Source: Pseudobutyrivibrio ruminis
GTDB taxonomy: Bacteria; Bacillota; Clostridia; Lachnospirales; Lachnospiraceae
Direction: 5' to 3'
Length of the DNA: 36,007 nucleotides
Assembly: GCA_015057315.1 (NCBI GenBank)
Contig: SVER01000032.1
Span: forward strand, 1-36,007
Every line of letters starts with the position of its first letter. Positions within the stretch are counted from its first letter, which is position 1. Position numbers and translations under genes: made by a program. Under the pieces are notes generated by a model, which made no database searches, was not told the origin of the DNA, and saw only the letters and a list, made by a program, of their open reading frames with translations. Below, one piece after another: positions 6,422 through 34,421 of this stretch.

Positions 6422-6712
6422 GTCATGGGAAATAAAAAAGAACAATATAAACCCATACAAATTTATAGTACTGCGTTGCTCAACTGTATGGGAAACTTTT
6501 CTCATGCCATATAACCCATACAAAAATTGGATGTTCTAGGATTCTTGGTGTATGGCATTAGAGTTCCACCATTGATATCCCATACATAATTTGCATATGG
6601 GGCTGAAAAATTGTATGGGAATAGAAATGTTGTAAAGCCATCCCATACAAAAAATAAAAAAATCTTCATAAAGCAGTATGGGAAATGTTCATAGATAAGA
6701 AGAAACCATACA
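6422..6712. repeat. Array 1: alternating inverted 8-mers with a 63-bp unit
   Basis: CCCATACA occurs at 6452, 6515, 6579 and 6642, with a variant ACCATACA at 6705. Its reverse complement TGTATGGG occurs at 6485 and 6612, with variants at 6549 (last base C), 6675 (first base A) and a poor one, GTCATGGG, at 6422. The two orientations alternate strictly. Each series steps 63, 64, 63, 63 bp, so the unit is 8+22+8+25 bases with one single-base insertion between 6515 and 6549. The spacers do not resemble each other in sequence but keep their length. No open reading frame uses the region except the 5' part of an overlong frame. The array stops 29 bases before the ATG at 6742. Confidence 0.92.
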
Positions 6713-6741: not shown

Positions 6742-7542
6742 ATGATAGATTATAGATTTGCTCTAGAAGAGCAATTAAGTGAAATAAAGGACTTGATAAA
6801 GGAATCAGAATCCAGGCTTAAAACCTTAGAAAGAGTAAAGCTGCTACCAGTTGAGGTATTGAAAAGAAACAATAAGTATTTGTATTACATAAAGGAGGAT
6901 AACAAGCGTAGATATATTAAAGGCAAAAAGCTAAAAGAGGTACAAAAAATAATTCAGAAAAATTATGAATTAAAGCTAAATAAGAACCTTCTAAAGATGG
7001 AGCGTAAATTGGAGAAATTCTTAAAAGAATATAGGATTAACGATATCCAAGGATTATATGAAAATACAGTAGAAGGAAGAAGGCTGATGTTAACACCATT
7101 AATAGAACCTGACGATGCTTTTATAGAAAGATGGATGAATGATCATCCAGGAGAGCAGAACCAGTATTATGGTGTAGGAAACTACAAAACTCAGCGAGGT
7201 GAATATGTACGCTCAAAATCCGAAAAAATAATTGCGGATATGCTATATGCAAATAAAATACCTTACCAGTATGAAGCATTACTAGACCTTAATGGAAAAA
7301 ATATTTATCCTGATTTTACAATACTTGATTTAAAGGACAGAACCACTAAGTATTGGGAACATTTTGGCATAGTATCGGACATAGACTATGCAACTAAAAA
7401 CTTTCAAAGATTAGCTGAGTATGAAGCCTGTGGGTTGGAGTTGGGAAAAGATATATTGATTTCTCAGGAAGCAGAAAACATGCCTTTAGATATTGCTATT
7501 GTAGAGAGAAAAATAAATAAATTAGCCTGCAATAAAGGATAA
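6742..7542 (+). CDS. Solitary PD-(D/E)XK-like protein, paralogue A
   Basis: A 266-residue basic protein. Residues 1 to about 100 are Lys/Glu-rich and probably coiled coil, with a YIKGKKLKEV element and K-x-N-K-N-L-x-K-M that recur in the paralogue at 23405. The C-terminal domain has a nuclease-fold core: RSKSEK (E161), YPDF (D191) and YWEHFG (E206-H207), i.e. E ... PD ... E-x-x with His in place of the usual Lys region. It belongs to a family I recall as widespread and unnamed in gut Firmicutes. The ATG at 6742 is chosen over the ATG at 6685 because it aligns with the start of the paralogue and because the longer frame would run through the last array motif; AAAGGA lies about 10 bases upstream. 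It is a single gene with its own terminator. Activity and target are unknown. Confidence 0.75.
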   Translation: MIDYRFALEEQLSEIKDLIKESESRLKTLERVKLLPVEVLKRNNKYLYYIKEDNKRRYIKGKKLKEVQKIIQKNYELKLNKNLLKMERKLEKFLKEYRINDIQGLYENTVEGRRLMLTPLIEPDDAFIERWMNDHPGEQNQYYGVGNYKTQRGEYVRSKSEKIIADMLYANKIPYQYEALLDLNGKNIYPDFTILDLKDRTTKYWEHFGIVSDIDYATKNFQRLAEYEACGLELGKDILISQEAENMPLDIAIVERKINKLACNKG

Positions 7543-22888: not shown

Positions 22889-22948
22889 GCACATTTCCCC
22901 ACCATTGAACTACTAGAATACAAAATAAAGATTAAATAATCTGCCGAA

Positions 22949-23349
22949 TACAGTGCTATTGGAAAAATCCTAGTTTGCACTGTAATGGACAGGCTACAAA
23001 TACAGCGCGAAGCAAAGATTTGAAAAAAGCACTGTATGGAGTATTGGTTTAATGCAGCGGAAATAGAAAAAAAGATGATAGCGCTGTAAAGATAGAAATG
23101 TGATTACAGTGTAAATAGATAAATATATAATGGCGCTGTAAAAAATTATGAATCATTACAGCGCTATATAGAAAAATAATGAGAACACTGTAATGCCAGA
23201 CTAATCATTACAGTCAGAAATGAAAAAATGTCATCGGCACTGTAATGGGACAGTAATCATTACAGTTATTTTTTATAAAAGAGTAGTTACACTGTAGTGT
23301 GGTCGTCATGAGTACAGCGCCTAGAGTAAAAAAATATAATAAAACTGTA
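22949..23349. repeat. Array 2: alternating inverted 8-mers with an exact 52-bp unit
   Basis: The R motif (TACAGYGC) starts at 22949, 23001, 23053, 23105, 23157, 23209, 23261 and 23313: seven consecutive steps of exactly 52 bp. The F motif (GCRCTGTA, its reverse complement) starts at 22977, 23029, 23081, 23133, 23185, 23237, 23289, all 52 apart, and 23342 (53). The unit is 8 + 20 + 8 + 16 bases. Variants occur at the outer bases, e.g. TGCAGCGG at 23053 and TACAGTTA at 23261. The 20-base gaps hold an A- or T-run of five or more in seven of eight units; the 16-base gaps mostly do not. Otherwise gap sequences are not conserved, although three 16-base gaps end in AATCAT. No coding frame is apparent in 22832-23404. 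Confidence 0.95.
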
Positions 23350-23357
23350 ATTCACAT

Positions 23358-23386
23358 TTGTTAAAAGGAAAGACATTATTTATAAA
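23358..23386 (+). promoter_or_regulatory. Predicted sigma-A promoter between array 2 and its gene
   Basis: TTGTTA at 23358-23363, exactly 17 bases, and TATAAA at 23381-23386. The start of transcription would be near 23393, directly on the ribosome binding site at 23392-23399, so the leader would be very short. The array lies just upstream of the -35 element, where bound protein could repress or activate. Confidence 0.5.
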
Positions 23387-23404
23387 GATTTAAAAGGAGT
23401 TCTA

Positions 23405-24223
23405 ATGAAAGAAATAATAAGAAAAATAGATATCAAATTGGAAGAAGTAAATAACCTGCTTCGTATATCAAATAAGCAGATAGCACAATATAACAATATG
23501 GCAGATATTCATATTCAGTCATCAATAAATCGAGGATATGAACAATTCTATTGTGTTGATAGAGCAAGGAATACAAGGAAATATTTGAGGATATCAGATT
23601 TGGTAAAGTATTCCGGCCTTATACAACGAGATTATGATATTAAAGTAAATAAAAAGTTAGTTAAAATGCAAAAGAAGCTTGCTAGAATTGCAAAGGACCT
23701 AAGAGAAATTGATTTATCTGAAATAAAGGCAATTTATAATAAACAAGCAAAGGCCAAGAAACCCTACATCACCCCAATAATTCCAAGTGACGAGGATTTT
23801 ATAGCTAGATGGTACGAAGAGCACAAAGGAGAACAGAACACATTTCCAATAGAAGGTAACATATACACAGAGCGAGGTGAACATGTACGTTCTAAATCAG
23901 AAAAGATACTTGCGGATTTATTTTATAAATATGATATTCCATACGTATACGAGCCGAAGATAAAAATGAGTAATGGACACATGGTATGTCCGGATTTTGC
24001 GTTATTAAATAAAGAAACGCGACAGACTATTTACTGGGAGCATCTGGGGCTTATAAATCAAGATGAATACGCAGTAAGAAATCTGGAAAAGCTACATGAG
24101 TATGAAGAAAGCAGCCTGATATTGGGAGAAAACTTACTGATATCCATGGAATCAACCAAGAAAGGCCTAAACACAAAACTAGTAGAAATGCAGATAAAGA
24201 AAAAAATAAGTAAAACCTTATAA
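23405..24223 (+). CDS. Solitary PD-(D/E)XK-like protein, paralogue B
   Basis: A 272-residue basic protein homologous over its full length to the one at 6742. The N-terminal 100 residues are divergent, Lys-rich and helical, with YLRISDLVKYSG and K-x-N-K-K-L-V-K-M. The C-terminal domain repeats the same core: HKGEQN, RGEHVRSKSEK (E166), CPDF (D197) and YWEHLG (E212-H213). The spacing of the three acidic residues (31 and 15) nearly equals that of paralogue A (30 and 15), which supports a conserved metal-site geometry. AAAAGGAG lies 5 bases before the ATG. It is a single gene behind its own motif array. Nuclease activity is inferred from the fold signature; the His after the last Glu replaces the usual Lys position. 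Confidence 0.75.
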   Translation: MKEIIRKIDIKLEEVNNLLRISNKQIAQYNNMADIHIQSSINRGYEQFYCVDRARNTRKYLRISDLVKYSGLIQRDYDIKVNKKLVKMQKKLARIAKDLREIDLSEIKAIYNKQAKAKKPYITPIIPSDEDFIARWYEEHKGEQNTFPIEGNIYTERGEHVRSKSEKILADLFYKYDIPYVYEPKIKMSNGHMVCPDFALLNKETRQTIYWEHLGLINQDEYAVRNLEKLHEYEESSLILGENLLISMESTKKGLNTKLVEMQIKKKISKTL

Positions 24224-30790: not shown

Positions 30791-30843
30791 AAACTAAGTT
30801 TATATACACAGTTATGTATTATAGTGGATTAAAAGGTGGAATA

Positions 30844-31176
30844 ATGAATAACGATACAATTATAGTTGAGAGCGAAATTTCAATTGCAGTCAATAAATTG
30901 AAAAATATGTCAGAAAATTTATCTGCTTCTGTGGAAGAATATGCTTCAATAATGAACAAGGTGCGGGATGAGGGAATATGCGATATCAAAATTGATGCCG
31001 AATTAAATGAAATAATAACTAAGGCAAAAGCTTATGAAGCAGCTATAGCTAATGTAGATTTAAATTTAAAAGGGATAATAGATGAACTTGAAACATCAAT
31101 AGAGGATAATAAAGATTTTTCATATCCTTATTCTGTTATGGATATTATATCCCAGGTTCTAAAAGTATTGTTTTAG
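30844..31176 (+). CDS. Small helical type VII partner protein 1
   Basis: A 110-residue, mostly helical acidic protein without signal peptide, with heptad-like ISIAVNKLKNMSENLSASVEEYASIM near the N-terminus. The ATG at 30844 is chosen because AAAGGTGG lies just upstream; the frame is open to an ATG at 30814 that has no such site. Its size and place, first in a locus with a second small helical protein and a lipase-type toxin, match the TlaA-like targeting partners of type VII lipase toxins. Sequence alone is not diagnostic. Confidence 0.55.
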   Translation: MNNDTIIVESEISIAVNKLKNMSENLSASVEEYASIMNKVRDEGICDIKIDAELNEIITKAKAYEAAIANVDLNLKGIIDELETSIEDNKDFSYPYSVMDIISQVLKVLF

Positions 31177-31188
31177 GGAGAAAGCATC

Positions 31189-31473
31189 ATGGATGAGATT
31201 AAACTACATAAAAAAAATATGATTAACTCCATATCTGAAATGAAATCATTGTCAGAGGTTACAAGCAATTATGATGTTAATATTACTTTTGAAAAATCTA
31301 AGGGCGACACGGTGGACAGTTTGGTGGAGCTACAAACACAGTTAAAAGCAATTAGAGATTCATTAGCTGAACTGTGTGCTACCACACAAAACGCTCTGCA
31401 AAACACTCTTGATACATTTAATAAAGTAGATAATACAATAAGTGATTTCTTTGATGGTGAGGAAGGAAATTAG
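31189..31473 (+). CDS. Small type VII partner protein 2 (TIGR04197/DUF3130-like)
   Basis: A 94-residue helical protein whose C-terminal FNKVDNTISDFF matches the F-x-x-x-D ... FF ending of the partner at 121-432. GGGAGAAAG precedes the ATG. Proteins of this class pair with the helical targeting domain of LXG-type and reverse-LXG toxins and are exported with them. The gene lies 12 bases after partner 1 and directly abuts the lipoprotein gene. Confidence 0.65.
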   Translation: MDEIKLHKKNMINSISEMKSLSEVTSNYDVNITFEKSKGDTVDSLVELQTQLKAIRDSLAELCATTQNALQNTLDTFNKVDNTISDFFDGEEGN

Positions 31474-32274
31474 ATGAAGAGAAAAATATATTTTTTATTG
31501 GCATGCATTACAATGGCTTGTATGTTAAGTGCATGTTCAGCAAAAACTGCAAAACAGGATGAAGAAGTGGTAGAAACAAAGCAGGAGGAAGAAGTAGTGC
31601 TATCTGAAAAGCAGAAAAAAATATTAAAAGAAGCTGGGCTTCCACAAAACTATGATGAGTTGGATGCTATGCAGCAAATAAATATTAGAAACATTGGCTT
31701 AATGCTAGATTATATAGAAAATAAATATGATAAGGAATTTGAATTTTATAAATTTTATGCAGACTCAACAGGTTTAGAGACTCCATCATTAGAAGTTTAT
31801 CCTGTTGATGACAGTGAATGCATAGTAACCGTTAAAACTGTAACTAAATCTGATTCAAAAAAAGTTACATATACAGATGATTACATGGAATTACAGGCAA
31901 CATCGGAATATGAGCAAGCAGTCAAAAACTGCATAGCAGAGAGATTTCAAGATGCTGAGTTTGAAGTATTTTCAACAATAAATTCAATGGAAGAAGGAGA
32001 GAGAGATGTATTATCTAAAGCATCAGCTGTGACCTACGTATGTATGGTTGATCCTTTTGAAAAGGAAGAGGATGCTTTAAAAGCTGCAGAAGAAGTTATT
32101 AATTATATAAAAGAGAAAAATGGAAATAAACCTTTAGGTATTTATTACTATATGCAGACTGAAGAGCAGTTTAATCAAACTTATATCACATCGGCTGATG
32201 ATGATTTCTCAGATGTAGAATATAAATACAGAATGACTACAAACAATAATGCTGCGAGAATAGAGGAAAAATAA
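31474..32274 (+). CDS. Lipoprotein, candidate TilA-like immunity protein
   Basis: A 266-residue lipoprotein. The signal is clear: MKRK, hydrophobic core and lipobox LSAC with Cys at about residue 21, followed by a Glu/Lys-rich linker. The mature domain (about 50-266) is soluble and acidic. In the staphylococcal TslA system the lipase toxin is neutralised by a lipoprotein on the cell surface, and this gene stands in the corresponding place, overlapping the start of the lipase gene by one base. GAGGAAGG precedes the ATG. Similarity to TilA itself cannot be judged here. Confidence 0.6.
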   Translation: MKRKIYFLLACITMACMLSACSAKTAKQDEEVVETKQEEEVVLSEKQKKILKEAGLPQNYDELDAMQQINIRNIGLMLDYIENKYDKEFEFYKFYADSTGLETPSLEVYPVDDSECIVTVKTVTKSDSKKVTYTDDYMELQATSEYEQAVKNCIAERFQDAEFEVFSTINSMEEGERDVLSKASAVTYVCMVDPFEKEEDALKAAEEVINYIKEKNGNKPLGIYYYMQTEEQFNQTYITSADDDFSDVEYKYRMTTNNNAARIEEK

Positions 32275-34016
32275 TGAGTTTAACAGATGAGCAACTGATG
32301 CTTTTAGAACAGCTTACATATATGGATACTGATGTAGCAAATGAAGCTTCTGTAAGTTTAAATACTAATGCAAAGACAGTTCAAGAATTTATTCAGCCAT
32401 TTCTAGATAATCCGGATGCTTTGAAAAATTTAGAAAATTCCACCAGGGATTCAATAAGTGGTGGGGTAATGCAGGGAAGTGAATGGGCAGCAATCATTCG
32501 TGAAGTTGAAAATGATCCAGAATTGATGAAGCTGGAAATGGATGTTAACTACACTAGTCAAAAGGATAAGACTATCGATAACATTGTATTTACAGAACCA
32601 AATGGTGACCCTAATAAAGCAATTGTAGCATTTAGAGGTACATTGGATGGAACAGAGTGGAATGATAATTTCTTAGGATTTAACACCACAGACACAGAGT
32701 GTCAGCAAGAGGCACTGAGATTTATAAATGGATTGCCTTACAATGATATTACTGTCATTGGACATTCAAAAGGAGGTAACAAGGCGCAGTATTGTACATT
32801 ATTATCGGATAAGGTTACTTATTGTTTATCTATGGATGGGCAAGGCTTTTCTCCTGAGTTTATTGATAAGTATTGGGCAGAAATACAGGCCAGGGGATAT
32901 ATGATAAATAATTATTCTTTAAAGAATGATTTTGTTCATGGAATTATACTCACAATTCCTGGTTCAAACCAAAAATATTTTACAGGTTCAGGTATGGCTA
33001 ATGCTGCAGAAAATCATAGTCCATGTTCGTTTTTTCAGTTTATGCAGGATGATAAAACAGGATTTTCTGCTATCATTCACAATGAAGATGGTAGTATATA
33101 TTTAATAGAAGTCGATGAGGAAGACTTATCTTTACAATATATACATAAGTTTTTTAACTTTGTAGAGAACATAATGCCAGATGATCAGAAAAATCAGGTA
33201 GTAACATTGTTAGGTCCACTTTTAGCTATGACAATTGGTGGTGGTATCGTTATAGATGGAACACTCTATAAAGGGCAGGATGATGCATTGAAATATCTAA
33301 GCGAACACCAAGAGGAAGCTTCGGTGTTGCTAGGGTATTTGCTGAAGTATATTTATCTATACGACTTGAGTGATGAAGAAATATGCTCAATGTTCGAGTC
33401 TTTTGGTTTTGGTGATATAGCGGATGGTATAAAGGAATTCCAAGAAGAACATCCATGGCTTTTTAGTATGGGAGTTGGAAGTATAAAAAGTTTATTGAAA
33501 CAATTAGGCGATGGTAACGATGACAAAATAATAAAGTGGCTTTTGGGTTATCTATCAGATTATTTAAAGGAGAAAGGGATTGATATTGACGTTAAAGAAC
33601 TCTGGGATGATACAGAAAGGGTATTTTCTTCAATAGATGTAACAGATCTTGACGCAGCTATTGCTGAGCCTACGCTTAGAGAAGATAAGATATATAATTT
33701 TTCCAAAGAAGCATTTGAAAATATTATGGAAACAATTAGTTCTTTTGAAAATTATTTATACGAAATAGTGGACTGGTCAAAATATGAGAATGAAAAATGG
33801 TCAGGAGATTTTTTGATAAGCTCTATAACAAATGCTATAAACAGGTATATAGATGGAGTTGCAGAGCAGATGTCAACGTCGAAAGCGCGAATTGAAGAAA
33901 CTTTTAATAAAATTTGGGTATTAGATAATGAGTATTCTACAAAAATAGAAATTCTGGCAGAAGATGTTACATCGAGTAAAGATAAGTATACTGCTCTAGC
34001 AGAATGCATAAAATAA
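32274..34016 (+). CDS. Putative type VII lipase toxin with reversed domain order (DUF2974-like lipase, C-terminal helical domain)
   Basis: A 580-residue protein without signal peptide. The N-terminal half is an alpha/beta hydrolase: AFRGTLDGTEWNDNF forms the oxyanion strand region, VIGHSKGG holds the nucleophile S165, and an Asp (MDGQGF or KNDF) and the His in ENHSP could complete the triad. The last 110 residues (from about IYNFSKEAFENIMETISSF) are a helical WXG100/LXG-like domain, so the targeting part is C-terminal, as in TslA of Staphylococcus aureus. The middle, about 270-460, is of unknown role. The ATG overlaps the stop of the lipoprotein gene. It is likely a secreted phospholipase acting on other cells; the substrate is inferred. 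Confidence 0.72.
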   Translation: MSLTDEQLMLLEQLTYMDTDVANEASVSLNTNAKTVQEFIQPFLDNPDALKNLENSTRDSISGGVMQGSEWAAIIREVENDPELMKLEMDVNYTSQKDKTIDNIVFTEPNGDPNKAIVAFRGTLDGTEWNDNFLGFNTTDTECQQEALRFINGLPYNDITVIGHSKGGNKAQYCTLLSDKVTYCLSMDGQGFSPEFIDKYWAEIQARGYMINNYSLKNDFVHGIILTIPGSNQKYFTGSGMANAAENHSPCSFFQFMQDDKTGFSAIIHNEDGSIYLIEVDEEDLSLQYIHKFFNFVENIMPDDQKNQVVTLLGPLLAMTIGGGIVIDGTLYKGQDDALKYLSEHQEEASVLLGYLLKYIYLYDLSDEEICSMFESFGFGDIADGIKEFQEEHPWLFSMGVGSIKSLLKQLGDGNDDKIIKWLLGYLSDYLKEKGIDIDVKELWDDTERVFSSIDVTDLDAAIAEPTLREDKIYNFSKEAFENIMETISSFENYLYEIVDWSKYENEKWSGDFLISSITNAINRYIDGVAEQMSTSKARIEETFNKIWVLDNEYSTKIEILAEDVTSSKDKYTALAECIK

Positions 34017-34037
34017 AAGATTTCAAGGGGCAAAGTG

Positions 34038-34421
34038 ATGAGTTTAACAGATGACGTTATTAATGAAATAAAAGCTCAAATTGAAGCGACTAAACAGAGA
34101 ATAGCAGAATTGGAAGCAGAATTAGAAACGCTGAAAGCATTTAAAACTGATGTATCTGATTCCCAGGATAGTTTTTCAACTGTGAATGAAGCGAAAAAAC
34201 AATACATAAGTGATTTGTATGATGAGGTAAAGGATAACGAGTGTGTAAACACATTGGCAAGGGGAATGTCTGTAACGCTTGATAGTGTCGGGTACACATG
34301 CGTTAAAGGGGTTTACCTAGCATTGCTAGGTTCTATTGATTTTAAAATATTGGAATATGAAACTAAAATAATGAACGAAAAGGCATCTCTTTGGGGATTG
34401 ATAGCAAGATTGAGTGAATAA
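34038..34421 (+). CDS. Coiled-coil LXG-associated protein (DUF5082/YwqH-like)
   Basis: A 127-residue protein. A strongly helical N-terminus with IKAQIEATKQRIAELEAELETL is coiled coil, as in YwqH-like (DUF5082) proteins encoded next to LXG toxins; a hydrophobic patch (CVKGVYLALLGSI) follows. AAGGGG lies 6 bases before the ATG at 34038; a GTG at 34035 is directly adjacent. It is the last gene of the lipase locus and closes with a strong terminator. Its role is probably chaperoning or targeting. Confidence 0.6.
   Translation: MSLTDDVINEIKAQIEATKQRIAELEAELETLKAFKTDVSDSQDSFSTVNEAKKQYISDLYDEVKDNECVNTLARGMSVTLDSVGYTCVKGVYLALLGSIDFKILEYETKIMNEKASLWGLIARLSE

Follow-up and report, generated by a model that had tools for sequence, protein, structure and literature searches.

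In single-protein plasmid partition systems such as pSK1 Par and R388 StbA, the gene for a DNA-binding protein lies beside an array of its sites, and these arrays serve as segregation sites. The family described here differs from them in being chromosomal, in having a nuclease-like domain and in its many dispersed arrays. REPIN/RAYT elements are described as dispersed intergenic inverted pairs whose class is tied to a gene of its own and which sometimes stand in tandem near that gene; the abundance of a REPIN class depends on the resident cognate gene, and orthologous genes with different flanking repeats constitute an orthoswitch (PMC3686654, PMC8049555, PMC3116915). REP sequences are defined by a conserved tetranucleotide (GTAG/GTGG) together with a palindrome of their own. 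The REPIN/RAYT arrangement shares with ours an own gene, dispersed intergenic inverted pairs, a motif class tied to the resident gene, and switching among relatives. The two differ in their enzyme, which is PD-(D/E)xK-like here whereas RAYT is a Y1 tyrosine transposase (no Y1 (HUH) transposase family of Pfam matched either window protein at E≤1), and in their arrays, which here are in whole-turn phase and flank foreign cassettes. No tetranucleotide is shared among the 80 labels of the 93 arrays discussed below.

TIGR-Tas is described as having edge and loop repeats with 9-nt spacers that are made into 36-nt RNAs, which are bound by a Nop domain (PMC12045711). The likeness lies in a single gene with an adjoining array, before or behind it, in which two short repeats alternate; the differences are that the repeats here are inverted copies of one motif and that their periods are helical multiples. 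We considered membership in TIGR-Tas and rejected it on domain content (a Pfam search found no Nop domain in the window proteins) and on array geometry (no 9-nt spacers). No description of such arrays was found in the open-access literature of PubMed Central, and the arrangement reported here, from the rumen bacterium Pseudobutyrivibrio and its relatives, appears to be a system not described before, made up of dispersed DNA elements that have an enzyme of their own.

The window, which is the whole stretch of DNA analysed (36,007 nt), contains the following features:

6742-7542, + strand: family gene A, 266 aa, paralogue of gene B
23405-24223, + strand: family gene B, 272 aa, with an N-terminal half (about aa 1-135) and a putative C-terminal PD-(D/E)xK-like half
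E166, D197 and E212 of gene B: predicted key residues in the C-terminal half, from conservation and the predicted order of core elements
6452-6712, strand not applicable: array A, alternating inverted sites CCCATACA / TGTATGGG, steps 33/30, period 63 bp
22947-23351, strand not applicable: array B, alternating inverted sites GC[A/G]CTGTAAT / ATTACAG[T/C]GC, period 52 bp

A preliminary description had taken the two genes for paralogues, each directly behind an array with its own motif and period. Both points were borne out: the proteins are 41% identical across 211 aa, and each gene lies right behind its array, with periods of 63 bp (six helical turns) for array A and 52 bp (five turns) for array B. 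The pattern is real and is larger than first noted.

Array A consists of nine sites, CCCATACA and its reverse complement by turns, in steps of 33/30/34/30/33/30/33/30. For array B, a motif search tolerating up to three mismatches returned 20 matches, 15 in register and five out of register, with spacings of 30 (R to F) and 22 (F to R) and a final step of 31; a 16th, degenerate site that fits the register can be seen by eye at 23051. Our alternation detector gave scores of 13 and 18.5 for arrays A and B. The top score among 1220 dinucleotide-preserving shuffles of upstream regions was 7.5, and control stretches inside the gene or further off scored at least 8 in four of 286 cases. A whole-window scan at a score of 7.5 found no arrays besides A and B, and no Rfam match lies within the window. 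Among orthologues of array B from four genomes, 11 of 150 site columns vary, compared with 44 of 280 spacer columns (p = 0.015). Elsewhere in the window, two clusters (64-2879 and 30814-34421) of small acidic proteins, lipoproteins and larger lipase- or protease-like ORFs resemble secreted-effector loci, an impression gained from the ORF list alone.

The window genes are members of one family, in which a variable N-terminal half is joined to a putative PD-(D/E)xK-like half. For the window proteins Pfam gave no domain above cut-off and NCBIfam no match; the family is outside the coverage of both databases and is without a name. In 90 diverse members (<70% identity), W136, R162-E166, E183, D197, E212, H213, G215 and Y222 are invariant (90/90); variation is far greater in the N-terminal than in the C-terminal half. 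The PD-(D/E)xK superfamily is marked by an acidic residue on the first helix and by PD and (D/E)xK on a beta sheet. The last catalytic position here reads E-H-x-G where PD-(D/E)xK expects ExK. In a structure model of modest quality (pLDDT 68.7, pTM 0.47), the order of the core elements fits PD-(D/E)xK, and the N-terminal half is modelled as long helices and a beta hairpin. We call the domain PD-(D/E)xK-like and treat the fold assignment as putative. A PDB sequence search gave no convincing relative.

The C-terminal domain of gene A matches the PADLOC candidate PDC-S68 (7.1e-26). This match is limited to positions 1100-1218 of a 1221-position profile, short of a full-profile match, and extends over no more than the domain that the family has in common with the helicases. 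A related domain occurs in a UvrD-type helicase of the window's genome and at the end of RecD-like helicases in viral contigs; the helicases ending in this domain that were read are 1004-1332 aa long. PDC-S68 and these helicases share the C-terminal domain of the family, with its RSKSE, PDF and EHxG motifs, and differ in that the family, where the others have their helicase part, carries a variable N-terminal half of roughly 135 aa, and in that arrays are present.

Among the matches listed, at least 28 of the 29 genomes of the genus Pseudobutyrivibrio carry a family match, with a highest count of at least 11 per genome, and the one genome without a match is 83% complete. Matches were found in 63 of 200 genomes sampled from the host family, some of them via the domain in helicases, and in 23 of 291 genomes sampled from the class. 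The ten matches in the window's genome correspond to eight single-gene copies, one of which is frameshifted and present as two pieces, and the helicase. By eye, an array can be made out at each of the eight copies, though faintly at contig C5; two of the eight score below the array threshold of 8. The frameshifted copy (L006/L007, G000:C88:51873-52641) still has a GACGTAG array in front of it. The GTGGTAA array that belongs to gene L005 has a tRNA gene (L286:16305-16384) some 370 nt ahead of it.

The seven plasmid and three phage records that matched include none with a place covering 80% of the protein. The annotated relatives from phages and plasmids are helicases or AAA ATPases, and the three phage records carry no annotation. 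We rejected an origin from a phage or plasmid because the relatives there match mainly the C-terminal domain.

After removal of seven loci on viral contigs and of duplicate loci, 204 copies of the gene were available, and the association with arrays was counted in the 164 that had both flanks and a complete N-terminal half. At a detector score of at least 8, an array is found on at least one side of 118 of these 164 copies (141 at a looser score of at least 6), and four of 600 random windows from the same genomes pass this score. The array is upstream in 108 copies, downstream in 20 and on both sides in 10, while 46 copies have none at the threshold; in 11 copies the array lies only downstream. 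Seven of the ten two-sided genes plainly have one motif on both sides, and an eighth probably does. The last site of the upstream arrays ends a median of 70 nt before the start codon, and the largest array has up to 26 sites. Degenerate arrays are missed by the detector: those at C5 and C88 score 5.5 and 6.0 although they are visible by eye (the C88 score being that of one piece of the frameshifted gene only), and an array at C12 that was found by pattern is absent from the matches of the detector scan. Arrays are present near other members of the family; their absence there would, according to the preliminary description, have spoken against the unit of array and protein.

The window's methyltransferase locus, at which gene B is situated, allows gene and array to be followed together. 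Both are present in 10 loci and both are missing in 16, an agreement of 26 out of 26. All 10 gene-bearing loci have an array score of at least 8; among the 16 gene-less loci, two had flanks of just 435 and 703 nt to judge by, and one is a distant second match in genome G021. Small genes resembling a HicA toxin pair were seen at five of the eight empty methyltransferase sites that were read by eye out of these 16 (L193, L200, L201, L203 and L204).

The spacing of the arrays was compared in a set of 93 arrays from copies with <70% identity, bearing 80 different 7-mer labels, some of which are registers of one motif, the labels being 7-mers and not full binding sites. The periods fall only at 41.7, 50.2-54, 61.9-64.7, 71.8-75 and 81.6-86 bp, and the gaps between these ranges are empty. 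Periods near 42, 52, 63, 73 and 84 bp are whole helical turns; the best-fitting repeat is 10.4-10.6 bp, with a vector length of 0.876 and a phase of -0.1 bp at 10.5 bp. In the 24 arrays with a period of at least 70 bp, the shorter spacing is 24-41 bp and mostly near 30, the split into shorter and longer spacing varying with the position of the 7-mer within the site. The inverted pair therefore seems to be a fixed unit, with a linker that lengthens in whole turns. Whole-turn periods suggest a protein on double-stranded DNA and speak for copies of it stacked along a single face.

Within the arrays, the motif columns reach a consensus of 0.97 against 0.66 in the spacers, a difference that is partly built in, since the arrays were found by motif. 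Adjacent units are more alike in their spacers than distant units (0.504 vs 0.452), which fits unit duplication. Adjacent opposite sites agree slightly but significantly better than other opposite sites (0.61 vs 0.58, p = 0.009 and 0.008); the excess is equal for both neighbours, so that no hairpin partner is preferred. Three of four pieces of the window arrays (138-150 nt) fold better as RNA than their shuffles (z = -4.6, -3.8 and -2.8; the fourth, -1.65), a surplus that inverted repeats are bound to show.

We compared motif and protein in 5253 pairs drawn from 103 copies of the genus. When the N-terminal halves are at least 80% identical, 30 of 32 pairs have the same motif, and the two exceptions are one motif in two registers. 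When the C-terminal halves are at least 90% identical, 8 of 38 pairs have different motifs, and the N-terminal halves of these eight average 48% identity. Over all 5253 pairs the two halves predict motif identity nearly equally (AUC 0.86 for the N-terminal and 0.84 for the C-terminal half), so the case for the N-terminal half rests on the closely related pairs. The motif appears to follow the N-terminal half, which we infer to be the part that reads the array.

Identity profiles in 100-nt steps point to exchange of the array together with this part of the gene. In the pair L002/L047, where both arrays score above 8, the upstream flank is 84-98% identical; identity drops to 34-65% over the block that begins with the array and reaches about codon 134, and then rises to 94-99% in what is left of the gene, or 93-100% with the following kilobase counted in. 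Divergent blocks ending near codon 100-134 are also seen in L025/L033 (31-76%, remainder of the gene 92-99%) and in L094/L096 (43-69%, remainder 96-100%, with noisier flanks). The arrays of L025, L033 and L094 score 6.0, 7.5 and 4.5, below the threshold of 8, and that of L096 scores 9.0; judged from these profiles, replacement of the motif is clear-cut only in L002/L047. The pair L001/L023 presents the mirror image, the array and the first 300 nt of the gene being 89-98% identical, the rest of the gene 66-83% and the downstream region 25-46%. The array and the putative recognition half thus appear to move as one block, although the array adjoins the N-terminal half, so that one recombination event could carry both without functional coupling and block exchange alone is no proof of contact. 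By flank homology, 149 copies of the genus fall into 42 sites, of which the top three contain 28, 15 and 13 members; single-linkage clustering was used, by which neighbouring sites may have been joined, and probably were in the biggest one. Three motif classes occur at the methyltransferase site, and directly behind guaA there are at least two motif classes above a score of 8, plus weaker ones. The earlier argument that array and protein form one unit is supported by the association in 118 of 164 copies, by the 26 of 26 methyltransferase loci and by this exchange of N-terminal half and array as a block.

Arrays are also found away from the gene. The motif B pattern occurs as arrays on contigs without a listed family gene; in the window's genome, C62 is one example, and orphan arrays are present on contig C89 too. 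In this genome 0.80 Mb were scanned (overlaps included). The scan, on a sample biased in that most contigs were picked for a family gene or an array, gave 17 matches, one of which is probably false (no exact site, period 39); a shuffled copy of the same 0.80 Mb gave none. Of the other 16 arrays, ten are not next to a single-gene copy; the label of each of the ten is identical to, or overlaps with, one carried by a gene-linked array of the genus. Arrays of the CTGTCACA type are present in five of 29 genomes, which are exactly those with a cognate copy among the matches listed, and all five also have them away from the listed copies; the chance of this coincidence is 1 in 118,755 if the genomes are independent, and they may share ancestry. 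GTGGTAA-type arrays are present in 11 of 29 genomes, of which nine have the same label or a shifted register and G017 a related label; G007 has such arrays, yet none of its nine examined copies has that label, and the strict GTGGTAA array pattern has no match in four genomes that have such a gene. The dependence of a class on its resident cognate gene, known from REPIN/RAYT, is thus seen here as well, more weakly for the GTGGTAA class and among genomes that may share ancestry. One viral contig matching the CTGTCACA pattern was rejected as an array, its clustered repeats being without alternation. Between purN and purD, an array is present in eight of 29 genomes, one inverted pair in one, and neither in the 20 others, where purD starts 6-225 nt on. 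This array starts at the purN stop, and both its ends, where seen, have outward-matching sites.

Two pairs of directly repeated arrays enclose genes in the window's genome. The first cassette (L276:2092-6622, G000:C29) lies between TGTCACA arrays, whose 306 bp copies are 97% identical, and contains a Fic gene in two frames, which correspond to positions 1-293 and 272-374 of PDC-S72, together with the UvrD helicase that bears the family domain. The second (L296:7549-11929, G000:C4) lies between GATAGTA arrays (310 bp copies, 85% identity) and contains CdiI_3, YxiF and DUF3969 immunity-type genes and one gene without a match. At trpD, a single genome has the first cassette and its arrays, another has a remnant, and 26 others have neither; none of the 28 genomes has an empty site with a single array. 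By this pattern, the array either arrived together with the cassette or disappeared along with it. The array of the second cassette is present at its locus in four of 26 genomes. We saw no target-site duplication or transposition event, and the duplicated arrays could stem from ordinary recombination.

Several roles had been offered for array and protein in the preliminary description, among them an operator cluster and a selfish element. The selfish element fits best, and the protein probably acts on the dispersed arrays as well; a pure operator cluster does not fit the downstream-only and orphan arrays. We give an even chance to the reading, drawn from sequence comparison, that this is a REPIN/RAYT-like system that arose independently with another nuclease and acts on its own and on dispersed arrays. 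A little short of even is our confidence in the fuller proposal of a second invention of the REPIN/RAYT principle, with hypervariable PD-(D/E)xK nucleases that read double-stranded DNA, phased networks of their own, block exchange, and host cassettes between duplicated arrays.

As a REPIN/RAYT-like system, each gene would encode a DNA-binding nuclease whose N-terminal half reads a 7-10 bp motif and which has an intact PD-(D/E)xK-like domain for its C-terminal half. Protein copies would occupy inverted site pairs about 30 bp apart, and neighbouring pairs would lie further whole turns away, which would place proteins of the same orientation on one face of the DNA. The gene-adjacent array would be the home platform and would probably also govern expression of the gene, and arrays with the same motif elsewhere in the genome would be targets in trans. 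Nicking or cutting inside occupied arrays, followed by repair from another unit, another array or an incoming allele, could let arrays grow or shrink, seed them between genes, replace alleles at fixed sites and leave cassettes between two array copies. The logic would be that of REPIN/RAYT elements, carried out by an unrelated enzyme on double-stranded DNA. The unit itself, the phasing, the agreement between motif and N-terminal half, the invariant residues, the dispersed arrays, their patchy presence and the duplicated arrays are evident from sequence; binding, cutting, spread, action in trans and benefit to host or element are what we infer.

If this is correct, common gut and rumen bacteria carry an unnoticed class of dispersed elements with its own enzyme family. 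Such a class would provide a natural library of many protein-motif pairs from which DNA recognition could be learned, a test case for the tolerance of nucleases with built-in chromosomal targets, and a possible route for the movement of defence and immunity cassettes. Shifting a site pair by half a turn would be expected to break the assembly, while a whole-turn shift would not.

An unlikely alternative, and the one that survives best, is a host-domesticated system that organises the chromosome, in which the dispersed arrays would be architectural or segregation sites and the nuclease fold would be structural or regulatory. In its favour are the several motifs found among the dispersed intergenic arrays of one genome, the occurrence of both arrays and gene sites in several species, and motif columns that are kept while spacers drift (0.97 and 0.66, partly built in). 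The patchiness of the arrays (eight of 29 genomes at purN-purD), the switching of motifs between close relatives, the nuclease residues invariant in 90 of 90 members and the 83% complete genus genome without a match among the matches listed argue against it.

Defence is improbable to a further degree. The array would hold or license the nuclease, which would be released or retargeted upon disturbance by a phage, and motif switching would evade phage inhibitors. The match of the gene A C-terminal domain to PDC-S68 and the presence of this domain at the end of helicases in viral contigs point in that direction, but the match spans only the domain common to the helicases. The cassette with the UvrD helicase and the Fic gene (PDC-S72) and the HicA-like genes at some empty sites (seen by eye among the eight of 16 empty loci that were read) would also agree with a defensive role. 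Such a role does not account for orphan arrays that stand between housekeeping genes, and the three motifs tested form no array in viral contigs.

With a last upstream site typically about 70 nt before the start codon, the arrays could be taken for an autoregulated operator cluster and nothing else, the protein repressing its own promoter via many operators. We rejected this explanation, which keeps only a slim probability, on the 11 copies with an array solely downstream and on the arrays away from any listed family gene; as many as 26 sites would also seem to exceed the need of repression. An array acting at the RNA level, with inverted sites giving rise to hairpins or to guide RNAs of the CRISPR or TIGR kind, is hardly credible: the folding surplus and the closer match of adjacent opposite sites would suit it, but it was rejected on account of periods of whole B-DNA turns, of an excess equal for both neighbours that leaves no preferred hairpin partner, and of the lack of RNA-binding domains (no Pfam domain above cut-off), and the window has no Rfam match.

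A separate observation concerns the purN-purD region of genomes that have no array there (L342, L344, L346, L350, L352 and L354), which contains an element of about 190 nt with a long-range stem and covariation. In the six genomes folded, 33 pairs were counted, 16 of which have changes on both sides, and the element has no Rfam match in L344, L346 and L352.
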